A stretch of DNA of 45,270 bases, taken from a virus. Each line of letters opens with the position of its first letter. Within the stretch, counting starts at the first letter, position 1. The notes under the pieces were generated by a model that was not told the DNA's origin, made no database searches, and saw only the letters and a list, made by a program, of their open reading frames with translations. The stretch is from positions 1 through 45,270 of the IMG/VR virus record IMGVR_UViG_3300033141_005166; one strand, given 5' to 3'. This document shows positions 2,990 through 45,270 of the stretch, piece by piece. The position numbers were made by a program, and so were the translations under genes.

Positions 2990-4855
2990 ATGCAAAAACT
3001 TAATGAAATTATATTACAGAAACCAATACTTGAGGAGACTTCAAGAGAAAACCTCCCTGAAGGAGTTCTCTGTAGAGTTACATATCCTGTTTGTAATATT
3101 GGTCAAAAAAATGCTAATCACAGGGTTTATGAGAAGGCTGTTTGGGAGAGAGTGCTCGAGTCTTCTGAACTTCAGGAGAAGCTGAAAAACAGAGCATTGT
3201 TCGGACAAGCAGAACATCCTGAACAAACTCAATCTGATCTTCAACTTACATCTCATGTGATATTTGAGATGTGGATAGATGAGGAACAGGGGAAAGTTTT
3301 TCAGAAGATGGACGTTCTTGATACGCCAACTGGTAGAGTTATTGATACTCTGTTGCGAGCTGGTTGTAATGTTGGTGTGAGTACGCGAGCTGAAGGAGAT
3401 CTTGAAGAGGCTGAGGATGAAGAAGGTCCTTATTCTCGTGTTGTTCCTGAAAAGTACAGATATACTACTACAGATTTTACAGCAGATCCTTCTACATTCA
3501 ATGTTGTTCCAGTGGAAGTAAAGAGGAACTTGGTTTCGGAGATTAAGAAAGGGTTTGATATACAAGATTTAAGAACGGATGAAAAGAAGTTCATGTGTTT
3601 AATACTTGAATCTATTCAACATGATAAGGAGAAATCTGTTGAAGTAAGTGAAAATGAAGAGAGTATAGAAGTTGGTGATACGATTCAAATACTCGATAAG
3701 GAAGATAACGCTACTATAGTTCCTGAAGCTACTGTGAAACAGAAAGATGAAGTTCTTGGATCTGATGGCAATATGTATCCTACTTATGAGGTGACTGGCT
3801 CCGAAGATGAAGATGAACAACAGTGGTACAGTGAGGAACAATATCAGGTTGTTCTTCTTAAGAAAGCTACTAAAGAGAGTGATGGTGTTGAGGAAGCTCC
3901 TGAAGAGGGAGCTGAAGAAAGGAAAGAATTAGAAGAGACAAAAGAAATCAAGCAGATGTACAAAAAAGCAGGTCTTCCTGCTCCTGATGGAAAAGGTGTT
4001 CATACTAAACAATTTCATGAGCTTGCTATAGAAATAGCAAAAGGTTATGTGGAGAAAGGAGATAGTCCAAAAGAAGCTCTTGCTAAGGCTTACCCTACTG
4101 CAATGAAGCAACTTGGTAAGGGGAAGGCTGTGAAGAAAGCTCATAGAAAAACTAAAGAATCTGAAGAGTTCGTTACTCAGTTTGATTCTTTAATTGATAA
4201 AATAGTGGATCTTAAGATTAAAGAAGCTAGTACTAGGGCTGAACGAGATGAAGCTCTTGATATGATAAGTGCTCTTAGAAACAACGAAACACATCTTCTC
4301 CGACAGAAATCTAGTAAAACATTAGAAACGAAGATACTTGCATCTAAGTTGAGGAAACTTATTAATGAAAGCAGTGATATAACTTCTGTTTTTAGGAAGA
4401 AACTTGAAGAGAAAACTGCTCTAGCAAAGAAATTGTTTGAGAAGAATGAAAAGATAAAAACAGGACTTATTAAGGAGTTGAAAGAGATAAAAGAATCTTT
4501 TAAAGCAGTAGAGAAGAAATATCAGAAGGAATTAGAAAAAGTTAAGCGGGAGACAGCTAAAGATATTTGTAAGGAGTTTATTGCTCAGTTTGTTAAACTC
4601 AGGGTCGCAGAGTCCGGTATGAAAGTAGACGCAAATTCTCAAGCACTTCTTGAGAAATGCAGTTCATTTGAGGAGGTTGATGCTACTATTGACGAGATTC
4701 GTAATATCAAGAGAAGGAATGCACTTCATTCTAAATCTATTAAAGAGATAAACGTAGTAGCTCCTCAAGATGCTGAACAGAGTGACCTTAAGAGATGTAT
4801 AGGTTCTCTTTTTGAAGGTTTTGGTTTAGTTAGAAAAGGTGATAAAAATGAATAA
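2990..4855 (+). CDS. Prohead core protease (T4 gp21-like, S80) fused to scaffold-like C-terminus
   Basis: The N-terminal ~190 residues fit the T4 gp21/peptidase S80 family, the serine protease that matures the prohead. Residues 70-78 (LFGQAEHPE) contain candidate catalytic His76, H89 follows in TSHVIFEMW, and NVGVSTRAEG provides candidate nucleophile Ser131. T4 gp21 is about 212 residues. This protein has 621 and continues through an acidic linker. A small module at about residues 323-385 runs from YKKAGLPAPDGKGVHTKQFH to KAVKKAHRK, and a long Lys/Glu-rich predicted coiled coil covers about 395-560, typical of scaffold/core proteins such as T4 gp22. I infer a fused protease-scaffold. AAAGGA at 2977-2982 supports ATG at 2990. 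The stop overlaps the capsid start by 8 bases. The leader contains ILE15, a possible self-cleavage site. Confidence 0.8.
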   Translation: MQKLNEIILQKPILEETSRENLPEGVLCRVTYPVCNIGQKNANHRVYEKAVWERVLESSELQEKLKNRALFGQAEHPEQTQSDLQLTSHVIFEMWIDEEQGKVFQKMDVLDTPTGRVIDTLLRAGCNVGVSTRAEGDLEEAEDEEGPYSRVVPEKYRYTTTDFTADPSTFNVVPVEVKRNLVSEIKKGFDIQDLRTDEKKFMCLILESIQHDKEKSVEVSENEESIEVGDTIQILDKEDNATIVPEATVKQKDEVLGSDGNMYPTYEVTGSEDEDEQQWYSEEQYQVVLLKKATKESDGVEEAPEEGAEERKELEETKEIKQMYKKAGLPAPDGKGVHTKQFHELAIEIAKGYVEKGDSPKEALAKAYPTAMKQLGKGKAVKKAHRKTKESEEFVTQFDSLIDKIVDLKIKEASTRAERDEALDMISALRNNETHLLRQKSSKTLETKILASKLRKLINESSDITSVFRKKLEEKTALAKKLFEKNEKIKTGLIKELKEIKESFKAVEKKYQKELEKVKRETAKDICKEFIAQFVKLRVAESGMKVDANSQALLEKCSSFEEVDATIDEIRNIKRRNALHSKSIKEINVVAPQDAEQSDLKRCIGSLFEGFGLVRKGDKNE

Positions 4856-6350
4856 TGTTGAGTTAGTTAAGGCTGAACTTGAAGCACTGCAGGCTCGACA
4901 GGAAGCTATGTTGAGAAATCCTCGGGTCGCTAAGATTGTTGAGACTGTAGAGGGTTATACTAAGAATATGCGCGGTAGTGAGTTGTCAATTCATGAGAAG
5001 AGAAATATTGCTCAGTGCCTTCATAACGCTATTCTTGATACAGGTATGAAATCTGGTACGAAGCTGTTTGAGGCTACTACTGAGGATTCAATTTCGTTCT
5101 TAGGTATTCAGCTTCCTGTTATTGCTGCTTTGCTTCCTTCGCTTGCTCTGAATGAGCTGGCTGTTGTGCAGGCACTTGATCGTAGGGTTGGTGCAGTGTT
5201 CTATCTCGATGTTACATATGGTTCGGACAAGGGTGCTGTGTCTTCTGGTGATACGATGATCGGAGCAAGGACTGGTCATGCTGTTGGCAAGAGTGCTCGT
5301 CGATATGCAATGGCCCGTGTGGTTGATGAATCCGTTGGGACCGCTCCCGACATTTCGACGACTGTTGCTTACGCTCCTGGTCTGATTAACCTGGAGAATG
5401 TTGTTCTCTACACCGCATCGAATCTTGGTACTGCAAGCGAGGCTAGAACAGTTATTGCAACTTGTGATGAGAGTGGTACTTTTACTGCTGAGAGTGGTTA
5501 CACTGTTTCTGGTACGATTACTGCTGCTGGTGTCCTGAGTGTGTCGACTGATCTTGATAGTGGTACTTCTATCTACATTCAGTATGACTATCAGTATGAT
5601 CTGCCTACGGATGCTAACAGTAATAGGGATGGAGTTCCTGAGGTGGACGTCGCAGTTACTCAATCTAGTATTGAGGCGATCGATTTTCCGCTGAGGGCAA
5701 AATACTCCATCGGAGCACACATTGATTTGCAGAAGGCTCATGGTATCGATCTGGAGAATGAGCTGGTCAAGTATCTTGGCAATGAGGTCAAGTTTACTAT
5801 CGACCAGGTCGGTCTTGATATGATTGATGATGCAGCTGATTCTGCAAACGGTGGTGCTGATGCTTGCACTGATTGGAATGCTAAGATTAATACTGGTCAA
5901 GAGTGGCTCTGGAAGAAGCACGAGCTCCTCGACAGGTTTGAGGAAGGCTCGAATAACATCTTCAAAAAGACTAAAAGAGGTATTGCGACGTTTATTTACT
6001 GCGGTAATAATGTTGCTCGAGTTATCCGTCAGCTTCCGGACTTCAAGCCCGTTGCTGGTCTGTGGAAGACTCCTCCGACTGGTCCAATGAAGATTGGTGA
6101 TCTACTAGGCCGGGCCGTGGTGCAGAATCCTTTCAAATCAGATAATGAATATACTCTTGGTTTCAAGGGTGATCAGTATCTGTATGCTGGGTTCATCTAT
6201 GCACCTTATATCCCGCTCTTCACGACTCCGACACTGGTGACTAGTGACCTCATGGCTCAGAAAGGCTTCCTGAGCTCTGCAGGTTTCAAAGTTATCAATG
6301 CTGGTCTGTTCTGTAAGGGCGAGATTAAGAATCTTGGCACAGCTGCTTAA
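4848..6350 (+). CDS. Major capsid protein (T4 gp23-like)
   Basis: A 500-residue capsid subunit, close to the 521 of T4 gp23. Start chosen: ATG at 4848, with AAAGGTG at 4835-4841, in preference to the in-frame GTG at 4839. Residues 1-75 are a Glu/Lys-rich propeptide. LFE75-A76 matches the gp21 cleavage rule (L/I-x-E), and the hydrophobic stretch that follows (FLGIQLPVIAALLPSLALNEL) mirrors the region after the gp23 cut. Residues around 265-305 (FPLRAKYSIGAHIDLQKAHG, then DLENELVKYL) are the gp23-type spine-helix region. The middle Ser/Thr/Gly-rich part (about 175-245) looks like an inserted beta domain. The gene is visibly richer in G/C third positions than its neighbours, as expected for the most expressed virion gene. 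Confidence 0.9.
   Translation: MNNVELVKAELEALQARQEAMLRNPRVAKIVETVEGYTKNMRGSELSIHEKRNIAQCLHNAILDTGMKSGTKLFEATTEDSISFLGIQLPVIAALLPSLALNELAVVQALDRRVGAVFYLDVTYGSDKGAVSSGDTMIGARTGHAVGKSARRYAMARVVDESVGTAPDISTTVAYAPGLINLENVVLYTASNLGTASEARTVIATCDESGTFTAESGYTVSGTITAAGVLSVSTDLDSGTSIYIQYDYQYDLPTDANSNRDGVPEVDVAVTQSSIEAIDFPLRAKYSIGAHIDLQKAHGIDLENELVKYLGNEVKFTIDQVGLDMIDDAADSANGGADACTDWNAKINTGQEWLWKKHELLDRFEEGSNNIFKKTKRGIATFIYCGNNVARVIRQLPDFKPVAGLWKTPPTGPMKIGDLLGRAVVQNPFKSDNEYTLGFKGDQYLYAGFIYAPYIPLFTTPTLVTSDLMAQKGFLSSAGFKVINAGLFCKGEIKNLGTAA
5064..5075 (+). other. Predicted prohead-protease cleavage site in the capsid protein
   Basis: These codons encode Leu73-Phe74-Glu75-Ala76. T4 gp21 cuts after Glu in (L/I)-x-E, and mature gp23 starts after its own site at about residue 65. 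The position and context here are equivalent. The same kind of tripeptide recurs near the N-termini of many proteins in this window. Confidence 0.6.
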
Positions 6351-6814: not shown

Positions 6815-7861
6815 ATGAAAGTTGCGCATTTCGGAAATTTTGCTCCTTTTAGATGTGGAATGTTTCATTCAATTTGTGATTTAATAAAAGCTGAGCGTTC
6901 AGTTGGTATAGATGCGCAATTTATTGATTGGACTTTAGAGAATCCTGTAAGAAATCAATTTTATAGTAGAGTAGGTCTTAGTTATGAAGATATTACAACT
7001 ATTACTCCTGAGTGGGCTAAAGATTGTGATATACTAGTTCGTCATTCAGCTATTCCTCAAGATGTTCAAGCTACAGGTATCCCAATTGTAATGGTAGTGC
7101 ATGGCCGTCCTGAGTATAGTTTTATGCTAGAACATACAGGACATGGTCCTATATTCAGTCATATGCAGAAGTATGCTTCGAATCCTCAATACAAAGCTTT
7201 TCTAGTACTGGGTGAGGAATATGTTGATGTTTGGAGATATCTTCTCGAGACTAATGCAAGAATTGAAAATCTTCCTCTTATGGTTGATCTTGAGAAGTTT
7301 AATCCTTGGGGCCCTAAACATCCATTAGGAGAGATGAGTGGCAGTCCTAATATTATAATAGCAGATAGATGGAGACAAGATACTACCCCCTTTTATCTGT
7401 TATTAGCAGCAGCAAAGTTTAAGGAAGAAGTTTCTACTGCAAAACTTCATTGTTTTGGACTTCCTGATCCAAATAAAGCTCATATAAGTGCTTTAGTTAA
7501 ACCTCTTATGAGAAAAGGTACTATTGGAAGAGCATTTACAGCAGTAGAAAATATGGATAAACTTTATCGGACTGCTGATTTTCTACTTTCTCCTAATAAT
7601 GTTTCTAATAGAGTAATTAGAGAAGCACTAGCTTCTGGTTGTCCAGTTATTGCAGCACCAGGGTGTAAATATACAAAGTATACTGCATTTCCTGGTGATA
7701 TTAATGGTTGTGTTGATATGATGAAGCAGCTTTGGAATGATATTCAAGCTGATCCTGTTGGTATAAGAGAGAAAACTTGTAAGATAGCTGAAGAACATTT
7801 TTCTCTTATGAGAACAGGAGAAGTTGTTCTTAAGATATTTGAAGAGATTTTTACAAAATGA
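6815..7861 (+). CDS. GT-B fold glycosyltransferase (GT4-like)
   Basis: A 348-residue predicted nucleotide-sugar glycosyltransferase. The N-terminus (MKVAHFGNFAPFRCGMFHSI) is typical of the first Rossmann half of GT4 enzymes. The C-terminal half carries the donor-binding signature VIREALASGCPVIAAPG with Glu270, followed by a short terminal helix. No signal peptide or membrane segment is seen, so it should act in the host cytoplasm. GGTGGGAG just before ATG is a strong ribosome site. It lies between the capsid and fibre genes, so modification of a virion protein or of host glycans is possible. The acceptor cannot be deduced. Confidence 0.75.
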   Translation: MKVAHFGNFAPFRCGMFHSICDLIKAERSVGIDAQFIDWTLENPVRNQFYSRVGLSYEDITTITPEWAKDCDILVRHSAIPQDVQATGIPIVMVVHGRPEYSFMLEHTGHGPIFSHMQKYASNPQYKAFLVLGEEYVDVWRYLLETNARIENLPLMVDLEKFNPWGPKHPLGEMSGSPNIIIADRWRQDTTPFYLLLAAAKFKEEVSTAKLHCFGLPDPNKAHISALVKPLMRKGTIGRAFTAVENMDKLYRTADFLLSPNNVSNRVIREALASGCPVIAAPGCKYTKYTAFPGDINGCVDMMKQLWNDIQADPVGIREKTCKIAEEHFSLMRTGEVVLKIFEEIFTK

Positions 7862-38509: not shown

Positions 38510-39805
38510 ATGCCCGCGAATGTAGGTAATCAAACAGTTACAATCTTATATCGTTCACTTGCAAGTTCTTCTGTGGTGAATAAAAGATTTCAAGATATCC
38601 GACAAACAGGAATTTATAAGGGAGGATATCTTTCTAAGGTTGACGATTCTCACGCTAAGTTATCTCCTTTGGTTTGTGAGATATCTGATGGTACATATCA
38701 AGTGAGGGTCGAAACAGCTTCTGAAGTTAGTAGTATAGCAGTAGGGACGGCTACTCCTTATGTTATTTTGCGGTGGAAGTATACTGGTAATGTTACTGAT
38801 TATATGGAAGTTCTTGCTGTTGCAACACCAAGTACTAATGATCTAGTTGTAGGCAAGTGCACGTTTGATGGAGGAGGAAATCTTACCGGCTTTGATTATC
38901 AAGATAGTGATTATCCTCGTACAACTCCGAATATACATGATCTTTTCTTAAAAGTTGAATCTACTGATGAAACAGAACTTCGAGTTAGAATTAGGGCAGG
39001 CAGAATTCAAACTAACAGTGGAGTAGTTGATATACCTGATCAGAAAAGTGATTTGTTTACTCCTCCTGCTAGTAATAGTAGAGTTGATCTTATATACGTA
39101 ACTGATGCAGGAGTAATTGCTATTGATAATTCAGGTACTCCCGCAGCTGAGCCTTCTCCTCCTTCGTATGAGGGAAGATTAGTTCTTGCTGAAATTACTC
39201 TGGATGCAGGTGATACAGATATTACATCTGATAAAATAAAAGATGTTCGGAGTTTTATAAATCCTTCTAACCCTGCAGGGGATGGATCTTATATAACGGA
39301 GGATGCAAGTAATAAATTAACACTTGTTAATTATAGTGTAGATAAAACCAAGGTTTCAAGATATCTTCCTGGACAAATTCTTCCAGGTTGGTATGTTAAA
39401 TATCATGCTTCAAATAATAAGACGAAACCAGGAGATTTTACATATGGTGATCCTTCAGGTAGATTTATTTCTTTAGGACAAATAATATGTCATGAAGGGC
39501 ATAATGTTGGATCGTATTTGTTTGAGATGAAAGTTTATAATGCATCAGGGGGAGTAAAATCTATTACTCAGAAGTTGCGATATCTTGATGATAATATTTA
39601 TTTCTACTTTAATGATTCAGGAACTGCATTCAAATCTGTAACAGGTACAGGCGGAAAGAATGAAGATATTACTTGGAACCTTTCTCCTGGTGAAAATACA
39701 TTACAGATTGTTCATAATAACACCGGTAGTGATCAATCTCATTTTACTCTTCTTGGCGATATTATAAATGATACTGATGTATATTTTGTAGGTCCTGCTA
39801 GTTAA
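38510..39805 (+). CDS. Fibre/baseplate-attached protein A (paralogue of next gene)
   Basis: 431 residues. Residues 1-245 are shared with the next gene: GNQTVTILYRSLASSSVVNKRFQDIR, GIYKGGYL, FLKVESTDETELRVRIRAGRIQTNSG and a closing SDKIKDVRSFI. The C-terminal part is different and beta-rich (WYVKYHASNNKTKPGDF, then NTGSDQSHFTLLGDI), a likely tip. AAAGGGGAA precedes ATG. The pair probably forms related short fibres sharing an attachment domain. Confidence 0.65.
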   Translation: MPANVGNQTVTILYRSLASSSVVNKRFQDIRQTGIYKGGYLSKVDDSHAKLSPLVCEISDGTYQVRVETASEVSSIAVGTATPYVILRWKYTGNVTDYMEVLAVATPSTNDLVVGKCTFDGGGNLTGFDYQDSDYPRTTPNIHDLFLKVESTDETELRVRIRAGRIQTNSGVVDIPDQKSDLFTPPASNSRVDLIYVTDAGVIAIDNSGTPAAEPSPPSYEGRLVLAEITLDAGDTDITSDKIKDVRSFINPSNPAGDGSYITEDASNKLTLVNYSVDKTKVSRYLPGQILPGWYVKYHASNNKTKPGDFTYGDPSGRFISLGQIICHEGHNVGSYLFEMKVYNASGGVKSITQKLRYLDDNIYFYFNDSGTAFKSVTGTGGKNEDITWNLSPGENTLQIVHNNTGSDQSHFTLLGDIINDTDVYFVGPAS

Positions 39806-39821
39806 TAACGGGAGATAAACT

Positions 39822-41054
39822 ATGGGAGCAACAAATCACGGAAATCAAGATATTACATACAACTATTTTGAAGAAGCTACAGCTGAGAATTTTAATAAGA
39901 GACACGTTGACATAAGGCCTCAAGGAATCTATAAAGGTGGTTACTTGAAGAAGGTTACTGATTCTGAGATTCTGTTAACACCATTTACTGTTGAGATTGG
40001 TGATGATAATACACAGATATGTTCAAAATCTACTTCTAATGCTACTCTTAATTCAGGTACGCTAGATTCTGGAAGCATTTCAAGTGCTACTTCTTATATA
40101 GTTCTTCGTTGGTCTTTTTCTGAACAAGTTGATAACTTCGTAGAAGTGCATGCAATTAGTTCTGCTGAAAATGCTCAATCAAATGATATTATTATTGGTA
40201 AGTGTGTATTTTCTGAAGCTACTTTAACAGGTTTTGATTACAGTGAAAGAACATTCTTGAATGTACAAGATTTGTTTTTAAAAGTAGAAGCTACAGAAGT
40301 TGAAGAGTTGTATGTTAGAGTTAGGGCGGGCAGAATTCAAACTTCTAGTACAACTATAGTTATACCTGAACAGAAAGTGGGGCCTTTTGAAGTTCCTAGC
40401 TCTCCTAATTCAAGGATAGATCTTGTCTATGTAACAAGTACTGGGACTGTTTCTATACAGAAAGGAAGCGCTGCACCAAGTCCTGCTGCTCCTGATTATG
40501 CTGGGAAGTTAGTTATAGCAGAAGTTAGAGTAGTAAACGGTGACACAAATATTACAGCTGATAGGATAACTGATACTAGAGCTTTTATTACTATTAGAGG
40601 TTATTTAGGAGGAGATTATACTAAAGTTTCTGATCAAGTAACAAGTGGTTCAGGGCCTCAAGCGAATGAATCTAACAAGTGGACAACAAGAAGGTTAACT
40701 ACTATAAATAATGATGATGGAGGACACTGTACACTTAATAACAATCAGATTACTTTAGATGCAGGAACATATCGTTGTCATATAAGTTGTCCTGTTTATT
40801 ATCAGGCCAGAGATCACAAAGCTCGTCTTAGGAATGTGACTGATGGTGTAACTGTTCTGGTTGGAACTAGTGAGTACTTACATGATGACTACGGGCGAAA
40901 TACAAGTAGATCATTTATAGTAGGACAGTTTACTATAACTTCGTCGAAAACTTTCGAGATTCAACATTATAAGAAAGGAGGATATTGGGGAAATCCTGCA
41001 AGTGTTGGAGAAGTAGAGATTTATACTGTTGGTGAATTCTGGAAAGTTGCATAG
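39822..41054 (+). CDS. Fibre/baseplate-attached protein B with C1q-like tip
   Basis: 410 residues. The N-terminal ~255 residues parallel the previous protein (GIYKGGYLKKV, LFLKVEATEVEELYVRVRAGRIQ, ITADRITDTRAFI). The tip is different: GHCTLNNNQITLDAGTYRCHISCPVYYQARDHKARLRN, then EYLHDDYGRNTSRSFIVGQFTI, resembling C1q/TNF-like trimeric domains. It is therefore a domain-swapped paralogue, separated from the first by only 16 bases. Confidence 0.65.
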   Translation: MGATNHGNQDITYNYFEEATAENFNKRHVDIRPQGIYKGGYLKKVTDSEILLTPFTVEIGDDNTQICSKSTSNATLNSGTLDSGSISSATSYIVLRWSFSEQVDNFVEVHAISSAENAQSNDIIIGKCVFSEATLTGFDYSERTFLNVQDLFLKVEATEVEELYVRVRAGRIQTSSTTIVIPEQKVGPFEVPSSPNSRIDLVYVTSTGTVSIQKGSAAPSPAAPDYAGKLVIAEVRVVNGDTNITADRITDTRAFITIRGYLGGDYTKVSDQVTSGSGPQANESNKWTTRRLTTINNDDGGHCTLNNNQITLDAGTYRCHISCPVYYQARDHKARLRNVTDGVTVLVGTSEYLHDDYGRNTSRSFIVGQFTITSSKTFEIQHYKKGGYWGNPASVGEVEIYTVGEFWKVA

Positions 41055-41061
41055 TTAGAAG

Positions 41062-41799
41062 ATGGGTTTTGTTATTAAGCATAATAAATCACCTGCGATA
41101 ATCCCAGCTAGGAAGGTTAAGTGTTTGGCGAAACCTATTACAGAAGTGCTATCTTCTACATCTTGGAAAGATTGTAGATGTCTTATAATAGGTGGAGGTC
41201 CTTCCTTAGCTGGTTTTGATTTTCGTCGTATCAAGGATGAGTTAACTATTGGAATTAACAAGAGTTTTACTCGGTTTCCAACCACTCTTAACTATGCAAT
41301 GGACATAGGATTTTATAATCAAGTTGCTTATCCTGTTGAGAAACCTGAGTTGCTACAGTTACATCAACAGTGGAAGGTTTATCGAGGTATTAAAGTATTT
41401 TTAGAACGACCGAAGTTTAAACTTGATTCTAGTGTTTATGTAGTTAAAGATATTAAAGATAAGGTTCTAAGTTTTGATTTAGAAAAAGGAATTCATGGGG
41501 CGAATAACTCAGGATTTGGTGCATTGATGCTCGCGATTGCTCTTGGAGCTACAAGAATTGGGCTGCTTGGTTATGATATGAAAGTTGATAACGTAGTAAA
41601 GCGGACTCACTGGCACGAAGGTTATCCTAATCAACAGTTCAAATCAATGCAATCAAAGTTGAATAAGTTTAAAGTTCCTTTCGAAGAACTTGCTCCTGCT
41701 ATTGTTGATGCGGGGATTACTGTTGTAAATCTGAATGTAAATTCTGGTCTTAGTTGTTTTCTTAAAGATTCCATAGAGAATTTTTTACAAAACTACTAA
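41062..41799 (+). CDS. DUF115-like sugar-associated protein A
   Basis: 245 residues. CLIIGGGPSLAGFDFRRIKDELTIGINKSF is a Rossmann-like opening with a GGGPSL nucleotide-binding loop, followed by AMDIGFYNQ, NNSGFGALMLAIALGATRIGLLGYDM and WHEGYP. This agrees with phage DUF115/MptE-like proteins often found beside glycosyltransferases; some are thought to act on nucleotide-activated sugars. The substrate is unknown. It is a paralogue of the next gene. Confidence 0.65.
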   Translation: MGFVIKHNKSPAIIPARKVKCLAKPITEVLSSTSWKDCRCLIIGGGPSLAGFDFRRIKDELTIGINKSFTRFPTTLNYAMDIGFYNQVAYPVEKPELLQLHQQWKVYRGIKVFLERPKFKLDSSVYVVKDIKDKVLSFDLEKGIHGANNSGFGALMLAIALGATRIGLLGYDMKVDNVVKRTHWHEGYPNQQFKSMQSKLNKFKVPFEELAPAIVDAGITVVNLNVNSGLSCFLKDSIENFLQNY

Positions 41800-41815
41800 A
41801 GTTAGGATATAGTAG

Positions 41816-42472
41816 ATGAAAGAAAGAAAAGAGAGTAAGAGAGTTTTTGTGGTGTGCGGAGGGCCAAGTCTTGAAGGATTTAGATTTTCTAGGCTCACTG
41901 AAGAAGATACAATTGTTGTAAACAAATCAATTCTTGACGTTCCACTTCCTAATTATTTTATTACAATAGATTATACCTTTTTAAAGAAAATTGGTGTAAA
42001 CTGTTTTAAGCGAATTAATACTACAAAGTTATTTGTAGCTAACTTTGGTTGTTCTTTCCTTAAAGAAAAGAATGGACAAATTGTTGATACAAGATTTGAT
42101 CTAAAATATCATTTAGAAAGTTTTGATAAAGTCGTCAGAAGTTATAGATCTGATGGAATTGGATTTTCATTTGATGATTTTAGAAGTGGAGCAAATTCAG
42201 GATACTGTGCTTTGCAGCTTGCAGTTATTTTAGGATATAAGGAAATCTATCTTCTTGGAGTAGATTTGAATACAACTGATAAAACTCACTATCATGGAGG
42301 GTATGGACAAGCATATGAAGTATTTAATAAAAAGTTAGAAAAATATTTTCGATTGTTTAAAACTGGTTTGTTAGAACTGCAATCTCATAGCAGCATAAAA
42401 GTATTTTCTTGTTCATCTAGTAGTCGATTGAATGAAATTATTCCTTTTCGTGTTATTGATGAAGTAATTTAA
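41816..42472 (+). CDS. DUF115-like sugar-associated protein B
   Basis: 218 residues, paralogous to the previous protein in motif order: VFVVCGGPSLEGFRFSRL, VNKSILDVPLPNYFITIDY, GANSGYCALQLAVILGYKEIYLLGVDLN, and THYHGGYGQAYEVF. The two proteins have clearly diverged, suggesting different substrates in one pathway. It leads into the GT2 gene with ten bases between them. Confidence 0.65.
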   Translation: MKERKESKRVFVVCGGPSLEGFRFSRLTEEDTIVVNKSILDVPLPNYFITIDYTFLKKIGVNCFKRINTTKLFVANFGCSFLKEKNGQIVDTRFDLKYHLESFDKVVRSYRSDGIGFSFDDFRSGANSGYCALQLAVILGYKEIYLLGVDLNTTDKTHYHGGYGQAYEVFNKKLEKYFRLFKTGLLELQSHSSIKVFSCSSSSRLNEIIPFRVIDEVI

Positions 42473-42482
42473 GAGGAGAAAG

Positions 42483-43748
42483 ATGAAACATATTACTATT
42501 GTAATTCCAACAAGAGGTCGATGTGAAAGTCTTTTAAGAACTTTGGACAATATCCCTCGAGAAGACTATATCGATATACAGATAGCTTGTGATGGCGATC
42601 AGAACACTTATGATCATGTTCTTGAAAGACAGAAGACAGATCCTGTAATTACAAGAGTAGAACTTCTTCCTGGACATAATGGTTCTGTTTTCTGTCGAAA
42701 TTATTTGATAAAAGATGTGTCTGATGGTCTTTTATATGCAACAGATGATATTCTTTTCGAAAAAGGTGCTATACAGAGGGCTTTTGAATTTTTCAATCAA
42801 GAGTTCCTAGATGATGATGGGGTAGTAGGATTTAATGAAAACTTGCCTAAATATTCTAAGACAGCAGCTGGCCTTGTAGGACAGCAGTTCTTATTAAGGT
42901 ATCCAGATAAGAAACTATTCTGTCCAAGATATTTTCATTTTGCTTGTCAAGAAATAGAAAGATTGGTTGATGTTGTTGAATCGCAAAAACATGTTTTTGC
43001 TACAAGAGACGATTTAAGATTAGATCATGCTCATCCGTCTATTGATAGAAAATACTTAGATCAGACACACAAGGATGCAAGGAAGTATGCTAAGGAAGAC
43101 CGTAATCTTTCAAGGGAACGTCGAGCGGAAGGAATAATATGGGGTTATAACGATATGGATACCACAGAGAATTCTTTTAATTCTTCTAAGTATTGGGAGA
43201 TTCGATATAAAAATAATGGAACTTCAGGAAAAGGTTCTTATGGGAAATTAGCTATTTACAAAAGTGAAGTTATTAATGATTTTATAAAGAAATATAATAT
43301 TCATTCTATGATAGATTTTGGTTGTGGAGATGGCAATCAAACTTCTCTTATAAATTGTGATAATTATGTAGGATATGATGTTTCAAAAACTGCTATTGAG
43401 AAGTGCAGAGAAAAATTCAAAAGTGATAAATCAAAAACTTTTACAGATTCTGTGAAAGGCTTAGAGAAGGCAGATCTAACTTTATCCTGTGAAGTTATAT
43501 TTCATTTAGTTGAGTTTAGTAAGTTTGCGGAGCATCTTCGACAATTATTTACTTTTTCAAAGAGATATGCGATAATATTTTCCAGTGATGAGTATACTAG
43601 AATACCTCAACCTAAACATGTGAAACATAGAAAGTTTACATCTTATGTATCAAAACATTTTCCTGAGTGGAAACTTACCAGGAAGATCTTGAATAAGTAT
43701 CCTAAAGAGTCCTTTTCAGACTTCTTTATATATGAGAAGAAACAATGA
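42483..43748 (+). CDS. Fused GT2 glycosyltransferase and SAM methyltransferase
   Basis: 421 residues. Residues 1-225 are a GT-A enzyme (ITIVIPTRGRCESLLRTLDNIP; ATDDILFEKGA carries the metal-binding acidic pair). Residues ~228-420 are a class I methyltransferase: KYWEIRYKNNGTSGKGSYG, then IHSMIDFGCGDGNQTSLI as SAM motif I, and VGYDVSKTAIEKC. The fusion suggests that a sugar is transferred and methylated in the same pathway. GAGGAG precedes ATG. The stop overlaps the next gene by four bases. Confidence 0.8.
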   Translation: MKHITIVIPTRGRCESLLRTLDNIPREDYIDIQIACDGDQNTYDHVLERQKTDPVITRVELLPGHNGSVFCRNYLIKDVSDGLLYATDDILFEKGAIQRAFEFFNQEFLDDDGVVGFNENLPKYSKTAAGLVGQQFLLRYPDKKLFCPRYFHFACQEIERLVDVVESQKHVFATRDDLRLDHAHPSIDRKYLDQTHKDARKYAKEDRNLSRERRAEGIIWGYNDMDTTENSFNSSKYWEIRYKNNGTSGKGSYGKLAIYKSEVINDFIKKYNIHSMIDFGCGDGNQTSLINCDNYVGYDVSKTAIEKCREKFKSDKSKTFTDSVKGLEKADLTLSCEVIFHLVEFSKFAEHLRQLFTFSKRYAIIFSSDEYTRIPQPKHVKHRKFTSYVSKHFPEWKLTRKILNKYPKESFSDFFIYEKKQ

Positions 43749-44374
43749 AGTATAAAATTGCAATAAATCTTGCAAAGAGGTATGATTCTTATCTTGTTCC
43801 GATATATCAAGCATTGAAGCTTGTAGAGAGGAAGTTTGATTTTGAAGTTAGTGAATCAACAGATATTCCTGATTTTAGTATAGCAGTGAATAATGAGATT
43901 GTTGCGTATATAGCTCATCAAGATGGACTTAAGTTCAGCAGATTGGATTGGCTGAATCTGAATAAGTTTGATTATAGAAGAGTATTCAAATTTCATTATA
44001 GTCCAAATGTGATTGATTATACTAGATATGGAAAGTATAAAGATAGGATACTTCCTTGTGGTTTGTATAGATGGTGGAATGATATTAAGTTCGATGCTCA
44101 AGATTTGTTTATTCGAGAAAGGCCTATTGATGTAGTTGCACTAATGAGATGGTATAATAAAGGTACTCCTTCAAATTCAAGAAAAACTTGGGCAGTTGCT
44201 AGGAGAACTTTAATATCAGAGGCTAAAAATTTAGAAGCAAAAGGATATAATGTCAGAGCAGGACAAAAGATTCCTTCTAACGAGTATAAGAATCTGTTAC
44301 TAGAGGCGAAACATTGTGGACAAGATAACTGCTATAATGACTACGATTCCTTCAAGAGAAAAAGCTCTTCTTAA
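43745..44374 (+). CDS. Truncated glycosyltransferase-like protein
   Basis: 209 residues, all expected features up to about residue 190 (LPCGLYRWWNDIKFDAQDLFIRERP, RKTWAVARRTLISEA, GQKIPSNEYKNLLLEAKHC). This order resembles exostosin-like/GT-B proteins of phages whose sequence would continue with an acceptor-donor motif. Here the reading frame instead runs 20 residues through the start of the next gene and stops. The overlap is 59 bases. I interpret it as a gene with its 3' end lost, though a short functional form is possible. Confidence 0.55.
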   Translation: MKYKIAINLAKRYDSYLVPIYQALKLVERKFDFEVSESTDIPDFSIAVNNEIVAYIAHQDGLKFSRLDWLNLNKFDYRRVFKFHYSPNVIDYTRYGKYKDRILPCGLYRWWNDIKFDAQDLFIRERPIDVVALMRWYNKGTPSNSRKTWAVARRTLISEAKNLEAKGYNVRAGQKIPSNEYKNLLLEAKHCGQDNCYNDYDSFKRKSSS

Positions 44375-45017
44375 AGTTATTGATTCAATATATGATCAGG
44401 TCAATTCTATCAGAATAGTGTTTAATGGATATGCACAAACTCCTGATTGGGTAAAGGGTATGCCAAAGGTCATATCATGTGTTGACCCCTCTAACAAATA
44501 TTCAGATTGTGCTAAGTGGAGAATAGCTCCGGATGAAGGGTATGTGTTCTCTATTGATGATGATATTTATTATCCTGAAGATTATGTGTCTGTTTTGATA
44601 AAAAAGATTGAGGAGTATGATAGAAGGAAAGTAGTTACAGTACATGGAAGTTATTTTAAGCTTCCTTTTCTTGATTTTAGAAAAAGTAAGAGATGTTCTC
44701 TTTTTTCTTCTGAGCTTGATAGAGATGTGCAGGTTAACATGGTAGGAAGCGGCACTTTAGGGTATCATACTGATACGATAAAACCAAGGTTTAGTGATTT
44801 TATTAGTCCAGGTAGAAGTGATATCTGGTTTTCTGCGTTGTGTTATAAGAAATGCATACCTATAGTATGCATCGCACGTAAGGAAGGGTGGCTAAGAGCC
44901 ATTCCAACAGAGGGACTTAGCATATGGGATAGAACTAGAACAGATAGAGATTTCTTGAATAAGAATACAGAATATGTAGCAAGATACATAATTCCATATA
45001 TTGAGAAAAAGAAGTGA
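44316..45017 (+). CDS. GT2-like glycosyltransferase
   Basis: 233 residues from GTG 44316 (AGAGG about nine bases before). The opening KITAIMTTIPSREKALLKVIDSIY and the acidic cluster VFSIDDDIYYPEDYVSVLI (DDD as metal site) match GT-A enzymes, with the catalytic C-terminal part DIWFSALCYKKCIPIVCI. It starts inside the preceding truncated gene. Substrate unknown. Confidence 0.75.
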   Translation: MDKITAIMTTIPSREKALLKVIDSIYDQVNSIRIVFNGYAQTPDWVKGMPKVISCVDPSNKYSDCAKWRIAPDEGYVFSIDDDIYYPEDYVSVLIKKIEEYDRRKVVTVHGSYFKLPFLDFRKSKRCSLFSSELDRDVQVNMVGSGTLGYHTDTIKPRFSDFISPGRSDIWFSALCYKKCIPIVCIARKEGWLRAIPTEGLSIWDRTRTDRDFLNKNTEYVARYIIPYIEKKK

Positions 45018-45018
45018 G

Positions 45019-45270
45019 ATGTTAGTTTCTGTTATAATGCCCGTATTTAACAGTGTTAAGTTCTTGAAAGAGTCTATTGATAGTATACTGAACCAGACGT
45101 TTGAAGATCTTGAGTTTATCATACTCGATGATGGTTCTACTGAGCCTGTGTGGGATCTAATACAATCTTACGATGATCCGAGGATTGTAAGTATTAGGAA
45201 TCCTGAAAATGTTGGTTTGACTATGTCTTTGAATATCTGTTTGGATAAAGTTCATGGGGATTTCGTAGTA
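45019..45270 (+). CDS. GT2 glycosyltransferase, 3' end outside the window
   Basis: The first 84 residues of a gene cut by the window edge. MLVSVIMPVFNSVKFLKESIDSILNQTF, then FIILDDGSTEP and NVGLTMSLNICL are textbook GT2 motifs, with DDGS as part of the nucleotide-binding site. It starts one base after the previous stop's TGA ends, so it is in the same operon. Confidence 0.85.
   Translation, partial: MLVSVIMPVFNSVKFLKESIDSILNQTFEDLEFIILDDGSTEPVWDLIQSYDDPRIVSIRNPENVGLTMSLNICLDKVHGDFVV

Follow-up and report, generated by a model that had tools for sequence, protein, structure and literature searches.

Maf/sialyltransferase-like genes behind the fibre genes of an uncultured tailed phage: a possible virion-glycosylation island

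Do the sugar-modification genes that follow the tail fibre genes of an uncultured phage act on the virion itself or on the surface of its host? The question is raised by the 3' end of IMG/VR record IMGVR_UViG_3300033141_005166, which was analysed over its whole length of 45,270 bases (hereafter the window). PHROG matches to a head-maturation protease, a major head protein, a contractile sheath, and a baseplate wedge protein mark the record as the structural section of a myovirus genome; a megablast search of isolate phages with 25 kb of the record gave no match. From position 41062 to the record end, six co-directional ORFs on the plus strand were found (Table 1), the first of which starts 7 nt past the stop codon of the second of two fibre-like genes. 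The sugar-modification cluster that an earlier note on this DNA had placed beside the fibre genes was thereby recovered, directly behind the fibre-like genes at 38510 and 39822. The head-to-tail order with overlaps described there holds for orientation and for the junctions ORF3/ORF4 (overlap of 4 nt) and ORF4/ORF5 (59 nt), whereas ORF1/ORF2 and ORF2/ORF3 are separated by spacers of 16 and 10 nt; an ATG just behind ORF5 is a possible start of ORF6. The island is cut by the record end at 45270, i.e., only its 5' part is present. Long ORFs, domain matches, and a gene order conserved among relatives rule out chance, and the gene cluster is real.

Table 1. Features of the window that are discussed in the text.
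Feature	Coordinates	Strand	Basis
Isolated weak GT-B gene	6815..7861	+	Glyco_trans_1_4 2.8e-5, just below cut-off
First of two fibre-like paralogues, candidate acceptor	38510..39805	+	cluster 20
Fibre-like gene, second paralogue, directly upstream of the island, likeliest candidate acceptor	39822..41054	+	tail fibre phrog_24210 5e-14
ORF1, 245 aa, Maf/GT42-like transferase, paralogue 1	41062..41799	+	phrog_4603 4e-27, AF2 model and Foldseek
ORF2, 218 aa, Maf/GT42-like transferase, paralogue 2	41816..42472	+	phrog_4603 2e-17, PDB matches
ORF3, 421 aa, GT-A/GT2-like (residues 1-222) and class I SAM methyltransferase (~240-420)	42483..43748	+	alignment, Foldseek, Pfam
ORF4, 209 aa, orphan	43745..44374	+	weak likeness in profile to the transferase-like cluster 34 only
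ORF5, 233 aa, divergent GT2-like, GTG start 44316 or ATG 44337	44316..45017	+	Glycos_transf_2 0.0041, below cut-off
ORF6, GT2 domain, 3'-open at record end	45001..45270	+	Glycos_transf_2 1.7e-21

Both ORF1 and ORF2 matched phrog_4603, which PHROG annotates as alpha-2,3-sialyltransferase. They had previously been described as two DUF115-like paralogues; the paralogy stands, but PF01973 (DUF115/MptE-like) gave 19.1 and 25.7 bits for ORF1 and ORF2, below the 34.6 bits needed in Pfam, and Maf/GT42-like is the better name. Searched alone against PDB with E-values up to 1, ORF2 matched solely the Maf structure 5mu5 of Magnetospirillum (0.0011) and CstI/CstII, while a ten-sequence profile of ORF1 and its relatives matched CstII of Campylobacter (6.5e-4). 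The AlphaFold (AF2) model of ORF1 (pLDDT 86) retrieved in Foldseek 5mu5 first (E 4e-5, probability 1.00, TM 0.51 by query length) and human sialyltransferases next. As the TM-scores of the Foldseek matches are moderate (0.36-0.51 by query length, with 11-14% identity to characterised enzymes), ORF1 has its fold in common with Maf and the sialyltransferases but is only remotely akin to them. CST-I (GT42) in Pfam did not match either ORF, the PDB profile match to Cst being remote, and neither ORF has the extra N- and C-terminal domains, the length of ~650 aa, or the linkage to flagellin genes of Maf, since phage genes alone lie around them. Because of the Pfam scores and the domain layout, we did not file ORF1 and ORF2 as members of Maf or GT42, and the missed cut-off and the lack of other Maf domains count against the reading preferred below. 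A near-invariant T-H-x-H motif lies behind an LLGxD strand, with T182, H183, and H185 conserved to 90% or more across the alignment, and is a plausible, putative catalytic site. Maf, Cst, and WaaZ-type enzymes transfer CMP-activated ulosonic acids. By sequence and predicted fold, ORF1 and ORF2 fall within the fold group of Maf and the sialyltransferases, an indication that the donor is a CMP-ulosonate.

The GT2-methyltransferase fusion reported earlier corresponds to ORF3 and is borne out. Its first 222 residues align over their full length with stand-alone proteins from eight phage loci, carry the invariant motifs DD (D88 D89) and YFHFACQE, and show a GT-A fold with a DxD-type motif and GT2-type Foldseek matches (best 7.5e-7), and Methyltransf_12 was found at 3.1e-7, above the Pfam cut-off. 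Among nine aligned sequences, the fusion of the methyltransferase to the GT-A domain occurs in ORF3 alone; the methyltransferase half, which was poorly modelled, has its closest relatives in methyltransferase-type ORFs of other islands. The domain itself is real, and from it we infer methylation of a glycan. Two GT2 genes had been claimed further downstream: ORF6 is a clear one, with relatives in the islands of loci L002, L014, L105, and L027, while ORF5 is a weak candidate with profile resemblance to glycosyltransferase clusters 26 and 0. ORF4 had been taken for a truncated glycosyltransferase, a claim that finds no support, as searches of Pfam, PDB, phage, and viral-contig sequences returned no relatives from which a family or a truncation could be shown; tblastn, viral-contig scans, and profile comparison likewise yielded no useful relatives of ORF4 or ORF5. 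The GT-B gene at 6815, previously said to lie by the other fibre genes, has a weak match below the cut-off, with the gene of the major head protein (4839-6350) on one side of it and DUF2793/spike genes on the other, and no homologue of it was present in any fetched relative locus. The two fibre paralogues (38510-41054) have ~250 N-terminal amino acids in common with each other and with relatives and differ in their C-termini, which, as expected from sequence, would fit exchangeable receptor-binding tips.

We then compared the surroundings of the island among relatives. A viral-contig scan with ORF1 as a single sequence gave no matches; the alignment-based scan did find relatives, and the IMG/VR profile scans listed 80 loci with ORF1 relatives, of which there are at least 308, and 32 loci with the GT-A domain; the ORFs of all these loci were clustered. 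The myophage layout, to which the lineage of the window belongs, runs from a baseplate gene through two fibre genes to an ORF1-like gene, an ORF2-like gene, often a GT-A gene, and more transferases; the succession of ORF1, ORF2, and the GT-A gene after fibre genes was found in L002, L003, L027, L105, and L117, and the fibre gene directly upstream is a conserved neighbour of the island within this lineage. The siphophage layout consists of portal, protease, decoration protein, presumed capsid, ORF1-like gene, cupin, transferases, and methyltransferases, sometimes followed by a TagD-like cytidylyltransferase, and then of head-tail connectors and tape measure. Among the matches listed, 79 of 89 non-redundant loci have an ORF1/2-like gene no more than three genes behind a gene for a presumed capsid, connector, or fibre: it follows the presumed capsid gene immediately in 31 loci, a head-tail adaptor in 20, and a fibre gene immediately in 10, and is at most three genes away in 18 others. 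The gaps between fibre and ORF1-like genes are mostly -7 to +12 nt. The match of the capsid cluster 15 to Phage_capsid is weak and that to a virion-structural PHROG strong; for cluster 8 as major capsid, PDB and PHROG gave no confirmation and the assignment is positional. Homologues in the isolate phages D3, PAJU2, S20, and CcrBL9 are located inside head or tail modules. The remaining 10 of the 89 listed loci and the homologues away from head and tail genes in phiNP (between lysis and terminase genes) and in XacN1 and RAS14 (beside ribonucleotide reductase genes) count against a virion reading.

Several other genes were noticed in these loci. The siphophage islands L004, L006, L008, L034, L077, L095, and L104 carry a TagD-like cytidylyltransferase, some with a possible LicD-like protein, hinting at decoration with a CDP-alditol or a phospho-substituent as an alternative to nonulosonates. 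Radical SAM proteins occur within islands (L124:10163-10981 on the minus strand, L014, L016, L034, L037, L038, and L090), and genes with a CxCGCGGRI motif, possibly homing endonucleases, stand among the structural genes of the lineage of the window (L002:153-827, L002:4817-5998, and the contig of L123-L131). This contig, JAHQJS010000001.1 (L117 and L123-L131; 179096 bases), was deposited in a Ca. Borrarchaeum weybense MAG and is a tailed-virus genome throughout, collinear with the window (head protein 65% and sheath 66% identical). An Asgard archaeal host is less likely for it, as the whole contig looks viral and encodes lipobox-like proteins, which favour a bacterial host; it is likelier a mis-binned phage than an Asgard virus.

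Predicted membrane proteins were rare in the islands: only 6 of 674 genes had two or more membrane segments (as counted by a hydropathy scan rather than a trained predictor), all of them short and none glycosyltransferase-like, and no gene among the 674 resembled a flippase or a polymerase. The transferase genes are, in other words, tied to virion genes and free of membrane export parts. Owing to this near-absence of membrane proteins and to the position behind virion genes, a virion protein is favoured as a cytoplasmic acceptor, proximity to virion genes being no proof by itself. The preference of the earlier note for a virion-protein target thus gains partial support, from gene position, the scarcity of membrane proteins, and the Maf fold. 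A literature search found no virion analysis for phages of this family.

On balance, we lean towards the reading that the window ends in the 5' section of an island which is expressed late and glycosylates the virion in the cytoplasm. The island would place a nonulosonate or Kdo on a virion protein, probably the fibre, and subsequently extend and methylate it. The fibre would be translated first and ORF1 and ORF2 next, probably from the same late transcript, as the spacing and orientation of the genes suggest. One or both of the two enzymes would then move an ulosonic acid, either a sialic-acid-like nonulosonate or Kdo of the host, from its CMP-activated form to a Ser/Thr of the virion protein or to a sugar already there, in the cytoplasm before assembly. 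The likeliest acceptor would be the upstream fibre in the lineage of the window and the capsid in siphophage lineages, and each of the two paralogues may have an acceptor or a linkage of its own. ORF3, ORF5, ORF6, and the missing downstream genes would lengthen the glycan, which the methyltransferase of ORF3 would cap; the likely benefit would be altered receptor binding (tuning) or shielding of the particle.

Modification of the host surface instead, i.e., a change of LPS, capsule, or another envelope glycan for seroconversion or superinfection exclusion in which ORF1 and ORF2 act as WaaZ- or Cst-like enzymes on lipid-linked acceptors, appears unlikely to us. Characterised Cst and WaaZ enzymes do act on lipooligosaccharide, ORF2 weakly matches the NCBIfam model of the WaaZ Kdo-transferase (3e-6, below cut-off), and the GT2 matches of ORF6 include PHROG O-antigen conversion families. 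Yet an island without flippase, polymerase, or membrane-anchored transferase, found amid virion genes in two unrelated phage layouts, is hard to bring in line with such a role, and late expression, if it holds, would come too late for superinfection exclusion.

The donor proposed in the virion-glycosylation reading can be followed through genes for sugar supply. In three of the nearest relatives, namely L002, L027/L098, and the 179-kb contig behind L117, more transferases as well as NeuA and NeuB (nonulosonic-acid synthesis) follow in the island; NeuB is also present in the siphophage locus L090. The NeuB proteins of relatives do not reach the equivalog thresholds for Neu5Ac synthase and pseudaminate synthase. 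A reverse viral-contig scan with NeuB gave the best 80 loci (L132-L211) of at least 490 relatives; NeuA was found in the fetched stretch of 59 of these 80 and an ORF1/2-like gene in 36. After removal of redundancy, the family lay near NeuB in 28 of 68 loci among the matches listed, a fraction without a random-contig baseline; the control scan for the background density of the family, on phage contigs at a distance from NeuB, yielded two loci only. The distance between transferase and NeuB was within 1.75 kb in 21 of 48 cases, where an even spread over 10 kb would give ~8 (redundancy left in), and all three ORF1/2-like matches on the 179-kb contig fall in the island. Neither NeuA nor NeuB lies within the present record, which ends inside the island, or in most siphophage islands, which counts against the preferred reading.

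The last observation also bears on the suggestion that virion proteins are glycosylated with ordinary sugars, in which case ORF1 and ORF2 would use another nucleotide sugar, their likeness to sialyltransferases would be one of fold only, and the NeuA/NeuB of relatives would serve other transferases. Such a reading draws on the very low identity to characterised enzymes and on the eight loci with a TagD-like cytidylyltransferase in place of NeuA/NeuB, but we hold it to be decidedly improbable: the top PDB relatives of ORF2 all use CMP-ulosonates, NeuB loci among the matches listed often carry the family, frequently less than 2 kb from NeuB, and phages without genes of their own could draw on host CMP-Kdo. 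In favour of a further reading, in which ORF1 and ORF2 would bind nucleotides as enzymes akin to MptE (a pterin diphosphokinase) and would not be transferases, PF01973, matched by ORF2 at 1e-5 (below cut-off), is named after MptE. We find this reading very hard to credit, for the fold search gives Maf and sialyltransferases, and ORF1/2-like genes have glycosyltransferases around them in all lineages encountered and occur close to NeuB in an independent set of loci.

Virion glycosylation is documented in few phages. As a wider proposal, which we put forward tentatively, many mostly uncultured tailed phages may make sialic-acid-like sugars (NeuB, NeuA) during infection and attach them to capsid or fibre via minimal Maf-type transferases, a phage counterpart of flagellin glycosylation. 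If true, a Maf-type route, partly with phage-made nonulosonic acids, would be common among environmental phages, an explanation would be at hand for the unassigned 'sialyltransferase' genes that laboratory phages, D3 among them, carry in their head modules, compact protein O-glycosyltransferases would become available for glyco-engineering, and adsorption and immune recognition of such phages would become testable questions. Uncultured phage contigs often encode NeuB-type synthases (at least 490 relatives), isolate phage records hardly ever: NeuB matched 3 of the 50,697 records of the annotated phage collection, and the two of these three that were examined had no ORF1/2-like gene within 10 kb.

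Among known systems, the Pseudomonas phages D3 and PAJU2 carry, among their head genes, an ORF1 homologue annotated as 'alpha-2,3-sialyltransferase' and, a few genes later, a methyltransferase gene; in contrast to the window, they are siphophages with a minimal gene set, and the homologues are 24-27% identical. A literature search found no functional study of these sialyltransferase-type genes. According to work cited in PMC11256854, Che8 and related mycobacteriophages encode glycosyltransferases for which a role in glycosylation of capsid or tail proteins has been proposed or shown; these transferases, however, lie near the 3' end of the genome, and the literature consulted gave no link to Maf/sialyltransferase-type enzymes or nonulosonate genes. 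CstI/CstII of Campylobacter (GT42) are remote profile matches with GGPSL and LGYKEIYLxGxD-type motifs in common with ORF1 and ORF2, but their natural acceptors are lipooligosaccharides and the identity is too low to derive donor or linkage. The closest parallel is Maf (5mu5; CbMaf of C. botulinum), which attaches nonulosonates, Neu5Ac, or Kdo to flagellin in O-linkage (PMC11339370). It is the best fold match of ORF1 and the best PDB match of ORF2, and is a cytosolic type of enzyme with partner genes for nonulosonate synthesis and a self-assembling surface protein as acceptor. Maf is, however, of ~650 aa and linked to flagellin, whereas ORF1 and ORF2 are single domains of 218-245 aa with ~11% identity to it, their neighbours are phage fibre and head genes, and their activity is a prediction from sequence and fold. 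By analogy, the island is predicted to act on the virion as Maf acts in flagellin glycosylation.
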